Assembly: GCA_002898275.1 (NCBI GenBank)
Contig: BEIQ01000001.1
Coordinates: 365,899 to 429,898 of the forward strand
From: a bacterium HR40
GTDB lineage: Bacteria; Pseudomonadota; Alphaproteobacteria; Geminicoccales; Geminicoccaceae
Length of the DNA stretch: 64,000 nt
Direction of reading: 5' to 3'
A model generated the notes under the pieces. The model ran no database searches, had not been told where the DNA came from, and saw only the letters and a program-made list of their open reading frames with translations. Of the stretch, positions 17,942 through 27,179 are shown piece after piece (position 1 is the first letter of the stretch; each line of letters starts with the position of its first letter). A program made the translations under genes and the position numbers.

Positions 17942-19252
17942 CTAGAGGATGAAGCGCGACAGATCGGCACCGGTGAGCAGCGAGCCCACCTGTTGGCGCA
18001 CATAGTCGCGGTCGATGACGAACCGCTCGCCCGGCCGATCGGAGGCGGTGAAGCTGATCTCTTCGACCAGCTTCTCCATCACCGTCTGCAGACGACGAGC
18101 GCCGATGTTCTCGACCCGGCTGTTGATCTCGTGGGCGAGCTTGGCGATTTCGTCGAGCCCGTCGTCGGTGAACACGAGCTCGACTCCTTCAGCGGCGAGC
18201 AGAGCCGTGTACTGACGCACCAGACTGGCTTCGGGTTCGACCAGAATGCGCCGCAGGTCCTGCTGCCCGAGCGGCTCCAGCTGCACCCGAATCGGCAGCC
18301 GGCCCTGCAGTTCCGGCAAGAGGTCGGAAGGTTTGGCGAGGTGGAAGGCACCGGAGGCGATGAAGAGGATGTGATCGGTGGCGACGGGGCCGTAACGGGT
18401 CGCGACGGTGGTCCCTTCGATGAGGGGGAGGAGATCGCGCTGCACGCCCTCGCGGCTGACGTCGGCACCCATCCGGCCCTCGCGCCCGGTGATCTTGTCG
18501 ATTTCGTCGAGAAACACGATGCCCTGCTGCTCGGTCGCGGCGATCGCCTCGCGCACGACCCGGTCCTGGTCGATCAGCTTGTCCGCCTCCTCGACGACGA
18601 GGAGATCGTAGCTTTCCGCCACCGTCATCCGCCGCTTCTTCGTCCGCTGGCCAAAGGCGCGGCTCAAGATCTCGCTGAGATTGACCATCCCGACCTGGGC
18701 CCCGGGCAATCCCGGAACATCGAAGGTCGGAAACGCCGGGCCGCCGGCATCCAGGAGTTCGATCTCGATCTCGCGATCGGCGAGCGCTCCCTCGCGCAGC
18801 ATGCGGCGGAACTTGTCGCGCGTTTCCCGGTGGGCACCGCTGCCGACGAGAGCGTCGAGGAGTCGCTCTTCGGCATTGCGCTCGGCCTGGGCGGCGACCT
18901 CGCGCCGCAGGCGCTCGCGGGTCATCTTGATCGCCACCTCGAGGAGGTCGCGCACGATGCTCTCGACGTCGCGGCCGACATAGCCGATTTCGGTGAACTT
19001 GGTCGCCTCGACCTTGAGGAAGGGGGCTTGGGCGAGCCGTGCGAGGCGGCGCGCGATCTCGGTCTTGCCGCAACCCGTGGGCCCGATCATCAGGATGTTC
19101 TTCGGCAGCACCTCCTCGCGCAGGCCTTCCTCGAGCTGCTGGCGCCGCCAGCGATTGCGCAGGGCGATCGCCACCGCGCGCTTGGCCGCCTGCTGGCCGA
19201 CGATGTGGCGGTCGAGCTCGTGCACGATCTCGCGCGGGGTGAGCGCCGTCAT
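17942..19252 (-). CDS. hslU: HslU (ClpY), ATPase subunit of the HslUV protease
   Basis: A 436-residue AAA+ unfoldase. Walker A is [14 protein letters not shown] and Walker [11 protein letters not shown]. The family pore segment GYVGRDVES follows Walker A, and the protein ends in the conserved hydrophobic tail LSRFIL that docks into HslV. Its ATG overlaps the hslV stop by 4 bp. It unfolds substrates for the HslV proteolytic chamber in the cytoplasm. It is convergent with the GST gene. Confidence 0.97.
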
Positions 19253-19971: not shown

Positions 19972-20349
19972 ATGTCGGGCAAGAGGGTGCTCATCGTCGA
20001 CGACGAGCCGAACATCGTGCTGTCGCTCGAATTCCTCATGAAGAAGGCAGGCTTCGAGGTCGAGGTGGCGCGCAACGGCCGCGAAGCGCTGGCCGCCCTC
20101 GACCGGGATCCGCCCGACCTCCTCTTGCTCGATGTCATGATGCCGGAGATCGACGGTTTCGAGGTGTGCGAGCGCATCCGCGCGCGGCCCGAGTGGCGGC
20201 GCACCCGGATCGTCATGCTGACGGCCCGGGGGCGCGAGAGCGAGCGCGAGCGCGGCCTCGCCCTCGGCGCCGATGCCTACGTGACCAAGCCCTTCTCGAC
20301 CCGGGAGTTGGTGGACAAGGTGCGGGGGATGTTGGAAGGGGAGGGGTGA
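19972..20349 (+). CDS. Stand-alone receiver-domain response regulator
   Basis: A 125-residue single CheY-like receiver without output domain. The phosphoacceptor is D54 ([10 protein letters not shown]), with the acidic pair D10-D11, T84 and K106 (YVTKPFS) all in place, so it should be phosphorylatable. ATG 19972 follows GGAGG. Its stop overlaps the GTG start of the next gene (GTGA). Genes that follow encode a degenerate kinase/exonuclease and an SLC5-type kinase; the latter is the likely phosphodonor by proximity. The downstream target of this receiver is unknown. Confidence 0.9.
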
Positions 20350-22442
20350 ACCGCAGCCGTCGCACGCTCTGGCTCGTCGCGACGATCCTCGGCGGGTCCA
20401 TCGCGCTGCCGGCGTTCGTCTTGGCGGCCCAGTTCTTCGCGGCCGATCCACAGCTCGCCCGCTGGCTGGGGCTGCTCGGCCTGTGGGCGGCCGGGCTGGT
20501 CGGCGTCGGCTTTCTCCTGCTCGACCGCCGACTGCTCTCGGGATTTGCGGAGTTTGCCCGTGCCCTCGACCACGCCTTGGTCGCCGACCCACCCCGCCGC
20601 GATCGCTTGCCAGCGGCAGCGCCGGGGCTCGAGCCCATCGCTGCTCCCCTCGGGCGTCTGCTCGACCGGCTGGACGAGGCGGAGGCGCGGCTCGCTCACG
20701 AGCGACAGCGGGTGGAGCGCGAGCTCGAGGAGCAGCGGCGGCGTCTGGCAGCGATCCTGCGCGATCTCGCTGACGGCCTCGTGTGCTGCGGCATGGACGG
20801 CCGTATCTTGCTCTACAATGACGCCGCCCTCGCCACCCTCGGCGAGGTGGGACCGGTAGGACTCGGGCGATCGCTTTTCGGTCTGGTGCAGCGCAGCGTG
20901 GTCGTCCACCATCTCGCCCTCTTGCGGCGCGCGGCGCTCCGCCATGCCGCGGCGCCGGTGAGCGAGCCGTTCGTGGCCGGCACGGTGGGCGGCGAACGCA
21001 TCCTGCGTTGCCGCCTGTCTTTGATCATGGAACCGGGAGCGCTGCCCGAGGGCTTCGTGTTGGTCTTCGAAGACGCAGGAGCGGACGCGCTTCGCCTCGG
21101 CGGTGAGCTGTTCCTCGAGCGGGCGACGAGTCGCTGGCGCGGTCCGCTGGCCAGCCTGCGGGCAGCGGCGGAGGTCCTGCAGGAGCGGCTGGCTGCCGAC
21201 GACGAGGCCACCGGCTTTCTCAGGATCGTGCTCGAGGAGAGCCTCCGCCTCGACCGCGAGCTCAACGCGCTCGGCGATTCGGCGCGGCGATTTTTGCTCG
21301 ATCGCTCCCCTCTCTACGACGTCGAAGTCGGGGATGTGGTCGAGCTTTTGCGCGAGCGTCTCGAGGAGGGTCGCCGCGGCCCCGAACTGTCGGCGCCAGC
21401 GGCGCCGCTTTGGCTCGCGGCCGACAGTTTCGCCCTCTGCGAGTTCCTCGCCGCTTTCCTCCTCTGGCTCGCCGGCTTCGGTGTCGAACGGGTGCGTATC
21501 GAAGGCCGACGCGCCGACGAGCGCGTCCTGCTCGAGGTTTCCTGGCGAGGGCCGGTGCCCGGTTCGCGCGCCTTCGAAGAGTGGCTCGACCGCCCCCTCT
21601 TCCCGCGGCTGGGCTTGACCGCCCGCGACCTCGCGGCACGCCACGGCAGCACCCCATGGATCGCCCCCGATGCCGGACGTTCGGGCGGCTTTCTGCGGCT
21701 CGACCTGCCGCCCCCGCGCGGCCTGCACCCGGTCGACCGGCGGTTCGTCCTACCACCGCGGCCGGAGTTCTACGACTTCCGTCTTCTGGAACAGCCTCCC
21801 GCCAATCTCGCCGATACGCCGCTCGACCGCTTGACGTGCGTGGTCTTCGACACCGAGACCACCGGCCTCGACCCGTCGCAGGACGAGCTCGTCCAGATCA
21901 GCGCCGTACGCGTCGTGAGCGGCCGGATCCTGCGCGGCGAGACCTTCGATGCCCTCGTCGATCCGGGCCGTCCCATCCCCCTCGCAGCGAGCCGCATCCA
22001 CGGGATCACCGACGACATGGTAGCCGGCCGACCGCCGCCGCCCCTGGTCGTCGCACGCTTCGCCGAGTTCGCCCGCGATGCCGTGCTCATCGCCCACAAT
22101 GCGGCCTTCGACCTCGCCTTCCTGCGTCGCTGGGAGGGCGAGGCCGGCGTCCGCTTCGACCAGCCGGTGCTCGATACCCTCCTCTTGTCAGCGGTTCTGC
22201 ACGAGGATATCGACGATCACAGTCTCGACGGCATTGCCGAACGGCTTGGCGTGGAGATCCGTGCCCGGCACAATGCGCTCGGCGATGCCGTGGCGACGGC
22301 GGAGGTGTTCGTGCGGCTGATCGAGCTCTTGCGCCATCGCGGGATTCGCACCCTCGGCGAGGCCCTCGCGGCCAGCCGGCGGGCGGCCCTGCGCCGACAG
22401 CGGCTCGCCGCCGACCGGGAAGCGGCGGCAAGGGGTGAATGA
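20346..22442 (+). CDS. Degenerate sensor-kinase module fused to DEDDh 3'-5' exonuclease (DnaQ-like)
   Basis: A 698-residue protein starting at GTG 20346 with a strong Shine-Dalgarno. Two N-terminal membrane helices (about 10-32 and 40-60) are followed by a coiled coil (105-135), a PAS-like domain (135-245) and a DHp-like helix pair (255-320). In the last, the phosphoacceptor His is replaced (S262 in [12 protein letters not shown]). The next part (350-455) lacks clear ATP-binding boxes. Residues 497-680 are a DnaQ-family exonuclease with all catalytic residues: D502 and E504 ([10 protein letters not shown]), D589, H642 and D647. So a membrane-anchored, probably kinase-dead sensor is tethered to an apparently active nuclease. 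Similar exonuclease genes neighbour SLC5-type kinases elsewhere. Confidence 0.85.
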
Positions 22443-22644
22443 GACGACCCGCAACCGGCTCGTCGTGCTGGCGATCGTTGCCGCGTTGCTGTTCGGCTAT
22501 CCGACATTCGCCGTGTTCGATGCCTTCGGGCGCTGTTGCCTCGCGGGTGCCCTGCCCCTCTGGATCTTCCTCGCCTGGGCGACGGTGATCGCCTGTACCT
22601 TCGCGATCGTCGGCGGCCGGACGGGGGAACGGAGACGGCGATGA
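22435..22644 (+). CDS. Small two-helix membrane protein
   Basis: A 69-residue protein with two hydrophobic helices (about residues 8-28 and 38-60) and a basic C-terminus. It starts at GTG 22435, overlapping the exonuclease stop by 8 bp, and its stop overlaps the ATG of the SLC5-type kinase. It resembles the tiny membrane proteins encoded beside sodium:solute symporters and may be an accessory subunit of the following transporter-like sensor. No catalytic residues. Confidence 0.75.
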   Translation: MNETTRNRLVVLAIVAALLFGYPTFAVFDAFGRCCLAGALPLWIFLAWATVIACTFAIVGGRTGERRRR

Positions 22645-25370
22645 TCGCGGTCTCGGTCGGAGTCGCCACCGCGATCCTCTATCTGGCGCTGCTCTTCGCG
22701 CTGGCGAGCTGGGGCGACCGACAGGCCGATCGCGGCCAGAGTGTCATCGATCATCCACTGATCTACACGCTTTCCCTCGCGGTCTATTTCACCGCCTGGA
22801 CCTTTTTCGGCAGTGTGGGGTTGGCGCAGGGCGCCGGGATCGCCTTCCTGCCCATCTATCTCGGCCCCACCATCGTCGCTCTGCTCTTTCCTGTCCTGCT
22901 CGCGCGGATGCTGCGCATTGCGCGGGCTTATGGCATCACCTCGATCGCCGACTTCATCGCTGCCCGCTACGGCAAGAGCAGCCTGCTCGGCGGCCTCGTC
23001 ACCTCGGTGGCGATGATCGGCATCGTGCCCTATGTGTCGCTGCAGCTCAAAGCGGTGGCAAGCAGCGTCGATGCGCTCTTCGGGCCGTCGGTGAGCCACA
23101 CTCTCGCTGGCTGGGGTCCGGATACAGCGCTGCTCGTGACCCTCCTGCTCGCCCTTTTCAGCATCCTCTTCGGCACCCGCCACATCGACGCCACCGAACA
23201 CCACCAGGGAATGGTGCTGGCGATCGCCTTCGAGAGCGTGGTCAAGCTCGCGACGTTCCTCGCCGTCGGCGCCTTCGTGACGTGGGGCCTTTACGACGGC
23301 ATCGGCGACCTGGTGGTGCGGCTCGAAGCCATCGGCCGGACGGAGTTGCTCACCTTCGCCGGCACCGGCATGACCTATCTCGACTGGTTCGCCCACACGC
23401 TGCTCGCCGCTCTGGCGTTCGTCGCGCTGCCCCGCCAGTTCCAGGTCGCGGTGATCGAGAACGTCGATCCCGACCATGTGCGTACCGCGAGCTGGCTATT
23501 CCCCCTCTACACCCTCGTGATCAACGTGTTCGTGCTGCCCGTCGCCATCGCCGGTGTGCTGAGCGGGGTGAGCGGCGATATGACCATGGTCCGTTTGCCG
23601 CTCGCCGAGGGTTTCCCCTTGATCGCCTTCCTCGCCTTCGTCGGTGGCCTGTCGGCTGCGACTGCCATGGTCATCGTCGAGACCATCGCGATCTCCACCA
23701 TGATCTCCAACGATCTGGTGATGCCGGTGCTGCTGCGCATCGAGCGCTTGCGGCTGGCTCGACGTCCCGATCTCACCGGGCTCGTGCTGGCGATCCGCCG
23801 GCTCTCGATCTTCGGCATCCTGCTCGCTGGCTATGCGTTCTTCCATCTCGTGGCCGAACAGTTCCAGCTGGTGTCGATCGGCCTCATTTCCTTTGCCGCG
23901 GTGGCCCAATTCGCGCCCCTCATCCTCTTCGCCCTGTACTGGCGGGAAGCGAGCCGCGCGGGTGCGGTGGCAGGCCTGCTCGCTGGCTTCGCGATCTGGC
24001 TCTACACCCTCGTGGTGCCGGCCTTCGCTCTGGCGGGTTGGCTCGACCCGCAAATCCTCGAGGCCGGGCCGTTCGACATCGCCTTGCTCCGGCCCCAAGC
24101 GCTGTTCGGCCTCGAGGGCTTGGCTCCCGTGACCCATGCCGTGCTGTGGAGCCTCGGCACCAATCTCGTGGTGTTCGTGACCGTGTCGCTGCTCTCCCGC
24201 CGCAGCGATCTCGAGCGCTTGCAGGGCATGCTCTATGTCGACGTCGACCAGGCCGAGCGCTCGACTCGGCTGTGGCGCGGGGAGACGCGAGTCGCTGCCC
24301 TCAAGGAGCTGCTCGTGCGCTTCCTCGGTCAGGAGGCGACCGCGGCCCTGTTCGCGCGCGAGGAACGACGGCGAGGCCATCGGCTCGAGGCTGGCGATCG
24401 CGCCGACGCCGAACTCGTCCAGCTGGCCGAACGCCAGCTCGCGCGGGCGATCGGTGCCGCCTCGGCGAGGATCGTCGTGGGTTCGGTGGTGCGCGGCGAG
24501 GTGATCGGCCCCGATGCGCTTTTGGAGATCCTCGACGAGACCTCGCAGGCGATCGAAGCCAGCCAGCGCCTCGAGCAGAAGTCGCGCGAGCTCGAACGCC
24601 TTGCCGCCGAACTGCGGGAGGCCAACGAGCGCCTGCGCCAGCTGGACCAGCTCAAGGACGATTTCATCGCCACCGTGAGCCACGAGCTGCGCACGCCGCT
24701 GACCGCGATCCGCTCGTTCTCCGAAATCCTGCTCGACAATCCCGACCTCCCCCAAGAGGAGCGGCAGCGTTTCGTCGAGATCATCGTCCACGAAACGGAG
24801 CGTCTCACCCGCCTCATCGACGATGTGCTCGATTTGTCGCGGATCGAATCCGGTCGCATGGAATGGCAAGTCACGGAGTGCGACCTGCGGGCCATCGTCG
24901 AGGATGCGATCCGACGCTGCGAGGGTCTTTTCCGCGAGCATGGGATCGAGGTCACGGCCGACTTCGGCGTCTCCCGGGCGCCGGTGCGCTGCGACCGCGA
25001 CCGCATCGTCCAGGTGCTCCTGAACCTCTTTTCCAACGCTGCCAAATTCGTCCCTGCGGGTCAGGGGCGGATCCACATCGAGCTGCGCAACCTCGGTACC
25101 GACTATCTCGTCCGCGTCGAGGACAACGGCCCGGGTGTGCCGAAGGAGATGCGGGAGGCCATCTTCGAGAAGTTCCGCCAAGTGACCTCGGCCCTCACCG
25201 ACAAGCCCCGCGGCAGCGGGCTCGGGCTCGCCATCTGCCGCGAGATCGTCCAGCACTTCCGCGGCCGCATCTGGTGCGAGGAGTCCCGCCTCGGCGGGGC
25301 TGCCATCTGCTTCACCCTGCTGCAGGCGGCGGCAGCTGCAGAAGCGGAGCCGCGGCGGCGGGTCGCCTGA
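22641..25370 (+). CDS. SLC5 (sodium:solute symporter)-type sensor histidine kinase, CrbS-like
   Basis: A 909-residue protein. Residues ~1-550 form a 12-13 helix sodium:solute symporter domain (ALPRQFQVAVIENVDPDHV is typical). A linker resembling the STAC domain (about 570-640) and a coiled coil follow. The kinase core has phosphoacceptor H681 (VSHELRTPLTAIRSF), an N-box (NLFSNAAKF), G1 (DNGPGVP) and G2 (GSGLGLAI). CrbS/MxtR proteins of this layout control acetate use in gammaproteobacteria through response regulator CrbR. The ligand here is unknown. The only receiver in the cluster is the stand-alone one at 19972. Confidence 0.9.
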   Translation: MIAVSVGVATAILYLALLFALASWGDRQADRGQSVIDHPLIYTLSLAVYFTAWTFFGSVGLAQGAGIAFLPIYLGPTIVALLFPVLLARMLRIARAYGITSIADFIAARYGKSSLLGGLVTSVAMIGIVPYVSLQLKAVASSVDALFGPSVSHTLAGWGPDTALLVTLLLALFSILFGTRHIDATEHHQGMVLAIAFESVVKLATFLAVGAFVTWGLYDGIGDLVVRLEAIGRTELLTFAGTGMTYLDWFAHTLLAALAFVALPRQFQVAVIENVDPDHVRTASWLFPLYTLVINVFVLPVAIAGVLSGVSGDMTMVRLPLAEGFPLIAFLAFVGGLSAATAMVIVETIAISTMISNDLVMPVLLRIERLRLARRPDLTGLVLAIRRLSIFGILLAGYAFFHLVAEQFQLVSIGLISFAAVAQFAPLILFALYWREASRAGAVAGLLAGFAIWLYTLVVPAFALAGWLDPQILEAGPFDIALLRPQALFGLEGLAPVTHAVLWSLGTNLVVFVTVSLLSRRSDLERLQGMLYVDVDQAERSTRLWRGETRVAALKELLVRFLGQEATAALFAREERRRGHRLEAGDRADAELVQLAERQLARAIGAASARIVVGSVVRGEVIGPDALLEILDETSQAIEASQRLEQKSRELERLAAELREANERLRQLDQLKDDFIATVSHELRTPLTAIRSFSEILLDNPDLPQEERQRFVEIIVHETERLTRLIDDVLDLSRIESGRMEWQVTECDLRAIVEDAIRRCEGLFREHGIEVTADFGVSRAPVRCDRDRIVQVLLNLFSNAAKFVPAGQGRIHIELRNLGTDYLVRVEDNGPGVPKEMREAIFEKFRQVTSALTDKPRGSGLGLAICREIVQHFRGRIWCEESRLGGAAICFTLLQAAAAAEAEPRRRVA

Positions 25371-25382
25371 CGCCAGGCCGGT

Positions 25383-27179
25383 TCAGCCCACCTTGAGGGC
25401 GGCGAGGAAGGCCTCCTGCGGGATTTCGACCCGTCCCACCTGGCGCATGCGCTTCTTCCCCTCCTTCTGCTTTTCGAGCAGCTTGCGCTTGCGGGTGACG
25501 TCGCCGCCATAGCACTTCGCGGTGACGTCCTTGCGGAACGGCCGGATGGTCTCGCGCGCGATGATGCGCGAGCCGATCGCCGCTTGGATGGCGATCTGGA
25601 AAAGCTGTCGGGGGATGAGCTCCTTGAGCTTCTCGCACATGGCCCGACCGCGAGACTCGGCCGCCGAGCGATGGACGATGGTGGCGAGGCTCTCCACCGG
25701 CTCGCCATTGATCAGGATGGACAGCTTGACGAGGTCGCTCGCCTCGTACCCGTCGAGCTGATAGTCGAAGCTGGCGTAGCCGCGGCTCACCGACTTGAGC
25801 TTGTCGTAGAAGTCATACACCACCTCGTTCAGGGGTAGTCGGTAGACCAACATCGCTCGGCTACCGACCCAAGTGAGGTCGAGTTGGCGGCCCCGCCGCG
25901 CCTCGCAAAGCTCGAGGACCGCACCGAGATAGTCCTCGGGGACGAGGATGGTGGCTCGGATCCACGGCTCTTCGATCCTGGCGATCCGGGTGGGATCGGG
26001 ATAATCGGCAGGATTGTGCAGCTCGCGCATGGTACCGTCGGTCAGATGGACCCGGTAGACCACCGACGGGGCGGTGACCACGAGGTCGAGACCGAACTCG
26101 CGCTCGAGCCGCTCCTGAACGATCTCGAGGTGGAGGAGTCCGAGAAAGCCGCAGCGAAAGCCGAGGCCGAGGGCCGTCGAGGTCTCCGGTTCGTAGACGA
26201 AGCTGGCATCGTTGAGCCGGAGCTTGGCGAGGCTGTCGCGCAGATGTTCATAGTCATTGGTGTCGGTGGGGAAGATGCCGCAAAAGACCACGGGCTGACT
26301 CGGCCGGAAGCCGGGAAGGGGCACAGCCGCGGGTCGGCGTTCGTCGGTGATGGTGTCTCCCACCCGGGCATCGGCGATCTCCTTGATGCCGGCGGTTATG
26401 AACCCGATCTCTCCCGGACCGAGCTCCGCGACGTCCCGCGGCTTGGGCGTGAACACGCCGACGCGATCGATCTGGTGGACCGCTCCGGTTCCCATGAAGC
26501 GGATCTTCTGGCCACGACGGAGCACGCCATTGCGGACGCGCAAAAGGGTGACCACTCCGACGTAGGGGTCGTACCAGCTGTCGACGACCAGCGCTTGCAG
26601 GGGTGCGGTGGCGTCGCCGCGCGGCGCGGGCAGGCGGCGGACGATAGCCTCGAGCACCGCCTCGACGCCCTCCCCGGTTTTGGCCGAGATCAGGAGCGCT
26701 TCGGAGGCATCGAGGCCGACGATGTCCTCGATCTGCGCCTTGACCCGCTCCGGGTCGGCCGCCGGCAGGTCGATCTTGTTGAGCACCGGCACGATCTCGA
26801 GGTCCGCGTCGATGGCCTGATAGGCGTTCGCCAGCGTCTGGGCCTCGACGCCCTGGGTGGCGTCGACCAGCAGCAGCGCCCCTTCGCAGGCGCGCAGCGA
26901 GCGGCTCACCTCGTAGGAGAAATCGACATGCCCCGGCGTGTCGACGAGATTGAGGACGTAGGACCGACCGTCCTGCGCCCGGTACTCGAGACGCACCGTC
27001 TGCGCTTTGATGGTGATTCCCCGTTCCCGCTCGATGTCCATCGAATCGAGCACCTGGCTCGTCATCTCGCGGGCGTCGAGCGCGCCGCAGCGCTCGATCA
27101 GGCGATCGGCAAGAGTGGACTTGCCGTGATCGATGTGGGCGATGATGGCGAAATTGCGGATACGCGACAGTTCGACCAT
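25383..27179 (-). CDS. lepA: Elongation factor 4 (LepA), back-translocating GTPase
   Basis: A 598-residue translational GTPase. The G1 motif is AHIDHGKST, with VDTPGHVDF (G3) and [13 protein letters not shown] (G4). The LepA-specific C-terminal domain is seen in [20 protein letters not shown]. It binds ribosomes and promotes recovery of stalled or mistranslocated complexes. It lies 30 bp downstream of pheT in the same direction and is convergent with the sensor kinase, only 12 bp apart. Confidence 0.97.

Follow-up and report, generated by a model that had tools for sequence, protein, structure and literature searches.

What governs an exonuclease that is joined, in one predicted membrane protein, to a histidine kinase core without its catalytic residues? 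This question is raised by a gene at positions 20346–22442 (+ strand) of the window, that is, of the whole 64,000-nucleotide stretch of DNA that was analyzed. The gene starts with GTG and codes for a 698-residue fusion of a membrane pseudo-histidine kinase and a DEDDh exonuclease; the reading frame and the positions of S262, D502, E504, D589, H642 and D647 agree with a preliminary description made from the sequence letters. That description proposed that a sensor which has lost phosphotransfer and carries a nuclease would degrade a nucleic acid or nucleotide at the membrane under the control of a signal. The lost phosphotransfer, the kept nuclease and the control by a signal are well supported; the signal, however, probably arrives through docking of a phosphorylated receiver and not through pairing with the SLC5-type kinase. 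The likely mechanism changes because a receiver-only regulator gene, on which the description did not remark, overlaps the fusion gene.

Gene order and family distribution

The fusion gene is apparently the second of four genes in one operon on the + strand. It is preceded by the gene for the receiver-only response regulator (19972–20349, +; 125 residues from its ATG), which matches Response_reg with an E-value of 9.4e-32, has no output domain and shares 4 bp with the start of the fusion gene. Downstream are a gene with a GTG start for a small hydrophobic protein of 69 residues (22435–22644, +), which matches no Pfam family above cut-off, and a gene for a 909-residue SLC5 (sodium:solute symporter)-type sensor histidine kinase (22641–25370, +). 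The long open reading frames that flank the set, 17942–19252 and 25383–27179, are on the opposite strand. The SLC5 kinase has intact HATPase_c (E 4.7e-26) and HisKA (E 1.4e-22) domains, both above cut-off; its SSF match (E 0.0011) is below cut-off, and none of its Pfam matches is to a STAC model between the SLC5 and kinase parts. The small hydrophobic protein is possibly an accessory subunit of the SLC5 transporter part. Similar small hydrophobic reading frames of about 65–75 residues, also without a Pfam family above cut-off, are found 5′ of the SLC5 kinase in six other loci (L114, L117, L119, L120, L145 and L021).

The AlphaFold2 model of the fusion protein (mean pLDDT 79) consists of N-terminal helices, a PAS domain, a DHp-like hairpin, a CA-like domain and the exonuclease, all encoded on the + strand. 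Two putative membrane helices occupy residues 2–60 (20349–20525); the model places helices at residues 2–30 and 35–79, and the membrane assignment derives from hydrophobicity and the model. The PAS domain (residues 133–243; 20742–21074) is assigned from weak Pfam PAS/PAS_4 matches below cut-off and from the secondary structure of the model. The DHp-like helical hairpin (residues 245–320; 21078–21305) is formed by model helices 245–281 and 286–320, and it carries Ser262 at the phosphoacceptor place (codon 21129–21131) and a conserved Arg265 at H+3 (codon 21138–21140). The degenerate CA (ATPase-fold) domain covers residues of about 324–455 (21315–21710), with Trp400 replacing the Asp of the DxGxG motif. 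The DEDDh 3′–5′ exonuclease domain comprises residues 499–655 (21840–22310; RNase_T E 6e-33).

The same architecture is seen in many genomes, which rules out a sequencing error or a chance reading frame as the origin of the fusion. Of 398 genomes sampled from the phylum, 51 gave a match with an E-value of 1e-60 or lower, and a long family member is present in 20 of the 31 genomes of the order, in some only in pieces. From 168 relatives the first search kept 80, of which 45 loci were counted; L046–L080, mostly exonuclease-only matches, were left out. Of the 20 genomes of the order with long members, 16 contributed a locus besides that of the window, which is itself among the 20; G008, G020 and G029 were left out. 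Among the 50 matching genomes of the phylum besides that of the window, 30 entered the main counts, and five more of one genus were added later. Genes in GC-rich loci were called by tblastn and codon scoring. The pseudokinase–exonuclease family is real and widespread and apparently undescribed, and no publication on such a fusion was found in the open-access literature searched. A contig record labelled as a Balneolia MAG (L044) holds a full-length but divergent member; a receiver is encoded upstream of it, and acetyl-CoA synthetase, symporter and DUF294 matches are nearby. The genome of the window has a second match to the exonuclease domain (G000:C2:567539-568120, L082), which is 42% identical over residues 496–688 and has no pseudokinase part.

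Kinase core and exonuclease domain

Pfam recognizes little of the kinase core. HisKA is matched in the 698-residue protein at residues 265–309 with an E-value of 0.0084, which is below cut-off, and HATPase_c is not matched; among 24 family members, HisKA was found in one (E 0.01), and HATPase_c is absent from the families listed for them. The loss of the phosphoacceptor histidine, noted previously at S262, is borne out across the family. Among the 42 rows aligned from the first set of relatives, 0 have histidine at this column, and it occurs in 0 of the 81 rows that have a residue there in an enlarged alignment of 92 proteins (11 rows are gapped), so no homologue on the alignment bears it. Judged from these alignments, the loss is ancient and general to the family, because neither set has a single row with the histidine. 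The 81 residues are Asp (27), Glu (26), Thr (8), Ser (5), Arg (5), Pro (4) and others, including Asn. A recent, lineage-specific loss is ruled out by the count of 0 in 81. An active kinase with an unusual acceptor, for which Asp and Glu (53 of 81) could be candidates, is disfavored; the CA motifs are lost along with the histidine, and Ser, Thr, Arg, Pro, Asn and other residues also occur at this place.

The nucleotide-binding motifs are gone as well. In the G1 box, 77 of 83 rows have Trp where DxGxG has its Asp. The N box is lost: Asn is missing from the eight most frequent residues at column 374 and is found in 5 of 83 rows at column 373. The family alignment has no glycine-rich stretch for a G2 box. 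The ATPase boxes had been called not recognizable; this holds for the motifs but not for the CA fold. A profile–profile alignment (hhalign) to the neighboring SLC5 kinases spans the whole DHp and CA region (probability 98.2, E 4.6e-14), and the sequence profile of the core matches histidine kinases in the PDB with a best E-value of 2.5e-11. In a fold search with the whole model, only the exonuclease part was found among the matches listed, and the kinase core was hence modeled and searched alone. The core was predicted with a pLDDT of 92, and this model superimposes on solved CA domains (PrrB CA: Z 15.0, 132 residues, 2.7 Å). Its alignments to whole DHp–CA kinases have a high rmsd, as expected if DHp and CA are hinged. 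The core is a conserved kinase fold without catalytic residues.

The exonuclease domain matches RNase_T with 115.1 bits, against a cut-off of 24, and RNase_T was matched in 24 of 24 family members of one alignment. The five catalytic residues listed in the preliminary description (D502, E504, D589, H642 and D647) are not only present but invariant, each being kept in 92 of 92 family proteins. The preliminary description named two observations that would refute it, close homologues with a functional histidine and exonuclease residues that vary across the family; both were checked on these alignments, and neither was made. At the level of sequence it is certain that a dead kinase core and intact nuclease residues are combined in one protein. 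The closest folds among the matches listed for this domain are PolC (Z 25.3, 190 residues, 1.9 Å), DinG (Z 22.5, 183 residues, 2.7 Å) and DnaQ epsilon (Z 22.2, 164 residues, 1.7 Å), and Orn is not among the best of them. Nothing supports the earlier idea that the enzyme might act on pGpG in the manner of an oligoribonuclease. The domain resembles the DnaQ/PolC/DinG type in its RNase_T fold and in having all five catalytic residues. Those enzymes serve polymerases or helicases, whereas the exonuclease in the window is, by its predicted membrane part, anchored in the membrane behind a sensor-like core.

The receiver-only regulator

Of the 88 longer family members, 53 have a receiver-only gene at most 1.5 kb upstream, and the gap is mostly between about −14 and 46 bp. 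All 53 of these receivers have the phospho-accepting Asp and the Lys, and in the window the complete active site (Asp-Asp/Asp/Thr/Lys) is intact and conserved in relatives. The 35 members without an upstream receiver comprise four that lie at or close to the end of a contig (L023, L031, L032 and L123), 18 of the Accumulibacter type, and L109, L122, L149–L158 and L161. Six Accumulibacter genomes were searched, and all six have one orthologue of the receiver (69–70% identity) beside an SLC5 kinase (64–65% identity) and away from the exonuclease gene. Loci in which the exonuclease gene is split from the receiver/SLC5 kinase pair in this manner include L006, L011, L019, L025, L033 and L045. The genomes G012 and G013 (loci L122 and L109) have a receiver 78–80% identical to that of the window, again beside an SLC5 kinase.

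On the side of the pseudokinase, 77 of 80 rows retain the Arg at H+3, as do 27 of 27 in the core alignment. A similar arrangement is that of DivL and DivK of Caulobacter crescentus (PMC4211667), where a PAS protein with a His-less DHp, an inactive CA domain and a conserved Arg at H+3 has a receiver-only partner. That study describes DivL as having neither kinase nor phosphatase activity, and reports that R553A reduces the binding of DivK~P; R553 (Y550+3) is at the same place as Arg265. DivL (4q20) is among the matches of the core, both by sequence (E 4.8e-8) and by fold (Z 12.4, 198 residues, 12.9 Å, tied with ordinary kinases). The two proteins also differ. A Tyr replaces the His in DivL, whereas the window family mostly has Asp, Glu or other residues, and the receiver link is here one of genetic linkage. 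DivL regulates the kinase CckA; the window protein instead has a covalently attached C-terminal nuclease. We speak of a likeness and make no claim of orthology.

Loss of the DHp part tends to go with loss of the receiver. Rows that have lost DHp are without an adjacent receiver in 16 cases and with one in 3, and DHp-intact rows are without it in 9 and with it in 51 (Fisher p 5.9e-8, the rows being related). For a test on the tree, 15 near-identical or redundant rows were dropped beforehand; of its 82 rows, 3 lay at the end of a contig and could be given no receiver state. The mean was 2.6 concordant and 0 discordant pairs (sign test p 0.25). The joint loss is suggestive and not significant, since supported branches provide just four independent pairs.

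One genus offers what amounts to a natural deletion experiment (L149/L186 and L184). In four of its genomes (G060, G048, G056 and G083) the DHp is intact and a receiver is encoded upstream. In two others, G091 (97% complete, L184) and G195 (75% complete, L149/L186), DHp is cleanly deleted and CA and exonuclease are kept, and a close receiver is found nowhere in the genome; in one the best match is 42% identical, and in the other no match reached an E-value of 1e-25. There are counter-cases. L185, from the same genus (G179, 74% complete), keeps DHp, L161 (G300, a complete genome) keeps a DHp-like part, and L031 keeps DHp, but in each a close receiver was not found in the genome; conversely, L041, L043 and L167 retain the receiver despite a shortened DHp. 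Control of the nuclease by the receiver is the best-supported reading, albeit unproven, and the link to the receiver is drawn from genetic linkage and sequence.

Proposed pathway, alternatives and metabolic setting

The usual outputs of bacterial two-component systems are transcription, second messengers and protein binding. We propose that here the output of a two-component pathway is a nuclease. The SLC5 kinase would sense a small organic acid, with acetate or pyruvate as likely candidates, and would phosphorylate the stand-alone receiver encoded beside it. The phosphorylated receiver, having no DNA-binding part, would dock on the DHp-like bundle. The pseudokinase, without residues for autophosphorylation or ATP binding, would serve as a reader of receiver phosphorylation, following the logic of DivK~P on DivL. 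The core would then relay a conformational change to the DEDDh domain at the C-terminus and so alter 3′–5′ exonuclease activity at the membrane. The likeliest substrate may be single-stranded RNA, such as mRNAs of carbon-source genes, although this step is tentative. We rate this gating pathway at slightly better than even. The chances are about equal for and against the broader proposal, a class of two-component systems with an exonuclease output, in which nutrient sensing by an SLC5 transceptor would lead to membrane-localized removal of RNA (or of a nucleotide tag) without a transcription factor. If true, a phospho-receiver that gates a nuclease would be a direct post-transcriptional output, and it would account for the single-domain receivers beside SLC5 kinases.

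The pseudokinase might instead be the partner of the SLC5 kinase, either as a heterodimer or as a competitor for its receiver, and so be a scaffold or brake on phosphotransfer, with the exonuclease constitutive or merely tethered to the membrane. The two kinase cores are indeed close; in all six genomes searched with it, the pseudokinase profile ranks the adjacent SLC5 kinase first after the fusion protein itself, and in the genome of the window this kinase has an E-value of 2.0e-13, the next one 3.8e-9. Their sequence kinship fits a shared partner, as in the pathway proposed above, and it also fits a simple duplication. An SLC5 kinase is matched in 26 of the 31 genomes of the order and adjoins the gene at 33 of 91 loci. 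The receiver is present at all 33, and at 19 further loci, out of 52 with an adjacent receiver, it is found with no SLC5 kinase in the stretch examined (some stretches are short). In Accumulibacter-type genomes, moreover, kinase and receiver are paired apart from the exonuclease. These distributions weigh against such a partnership, which we consider unlikely. A further reading makes the dead core only a dimerization or linker module; the PAS and membrane parts would sense a ligand directly and set the nuclease activity, and the receiver would be a neighbor and not a binding partner. Shortened relatives speak for it. Forms of about 470 residues (L154–L158) keep the membrane and PAS parts without DHp and CA, and in 300-residue forms (L038–L040 and L042) PAS is missing too, so that a membrane start and the exonuclease remain. 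The nuclease can therefore work without the core, and the membrane start and the exonuclease are the irreducible parts, since the short forms keep just these. The core itself looks like a regulatory module. Among the four genomes with short forms, a receiver close to the L009 type is missing from three, and the fourth has only 40–43% matches in larger proteins. A mere linker would not need the phospho-Asp of the receiver or the Arg at H+3, both of which are conserved as given above, nor would it explain that receiver loss tends to accompany DHp loss. We judge this reading to be rather unlikely.

Many family members are surrounded by genes for acetyl-CoA synthetase, an ActP-like symporter, the SLC5 kinase and a CBS/DUF294 nucleotidyltransferase. 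The exonuclease could be an eraser of nucleotides that the neighboring nucleotidyltransferase writes on protein or RNA. CBS/DUF294 genes occur near 20 of 45 loci in one set and 9 of 16 in the other, and Pflu5625 of P. fluorescens, which has cNMP, CBS and nucleotidyltransferase domains and belongs to the CrbS/R regulon, is predicted to act by nucleotidylation (PMC5715377). The genome of the window carries acetyl-CoA synthetase genes and a single strong DUF294 gene at other places, but no DUF294 gene near the fusion; the nearest is about 48 kb off, with no exonuclease beside it. In P. putida, the RNase_T gene pp_0353 shares an operon with pp_0354, a CBS-domain gene known to be controlled by the SLC5-kinase system MxtR/ErdR, and unlike phenotypes of the two deletions on pyruvate are reported (PMC9927547). 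We consider a writer and eraser pair very unlikely.

The pp_0353 deletion impairs growth of P. putida on pyruvate, and the authors speculate on mRNA decay (PMC9927547). This phenotype lends support to a possible RNA-level role for the window exonuclease, insofar as pp_0353 is likened to it through the RNase_T domain. Were the phospho-receiver to gate the nuclease as we propose, the pathway would supply a mechanism for this unexplained role of an exonuclease in a CrbS/R-type regulon in pyruvate growth. The locus resembles the CrbS/CrbR (MxtR/ErdR) SLC5–STAC acetate/pyruvate systems in its SLC5-type sensor kinase, in the acetyl-CoA synthetase, symporter and CBS/DUF294 genes that are often nearby, and in the association with an RNase_T exonuclease. 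The regulator of those systems is of the LuxR family (PMC9100948), whereas that of the window is receiver-only, without an output domain; here, in addition, the exonuclease carries a pseudokinase. In one locus (L001, 809–2434), the neighborhood includes a gene for a short-chain fatty acyl-CoA regulator (PF09856), in agreement with a link to acetate/propionate metabolism. A HisKA match at 158–214 (E 8.3e-08), unusual for a regulator of this kind, is present in it as well.
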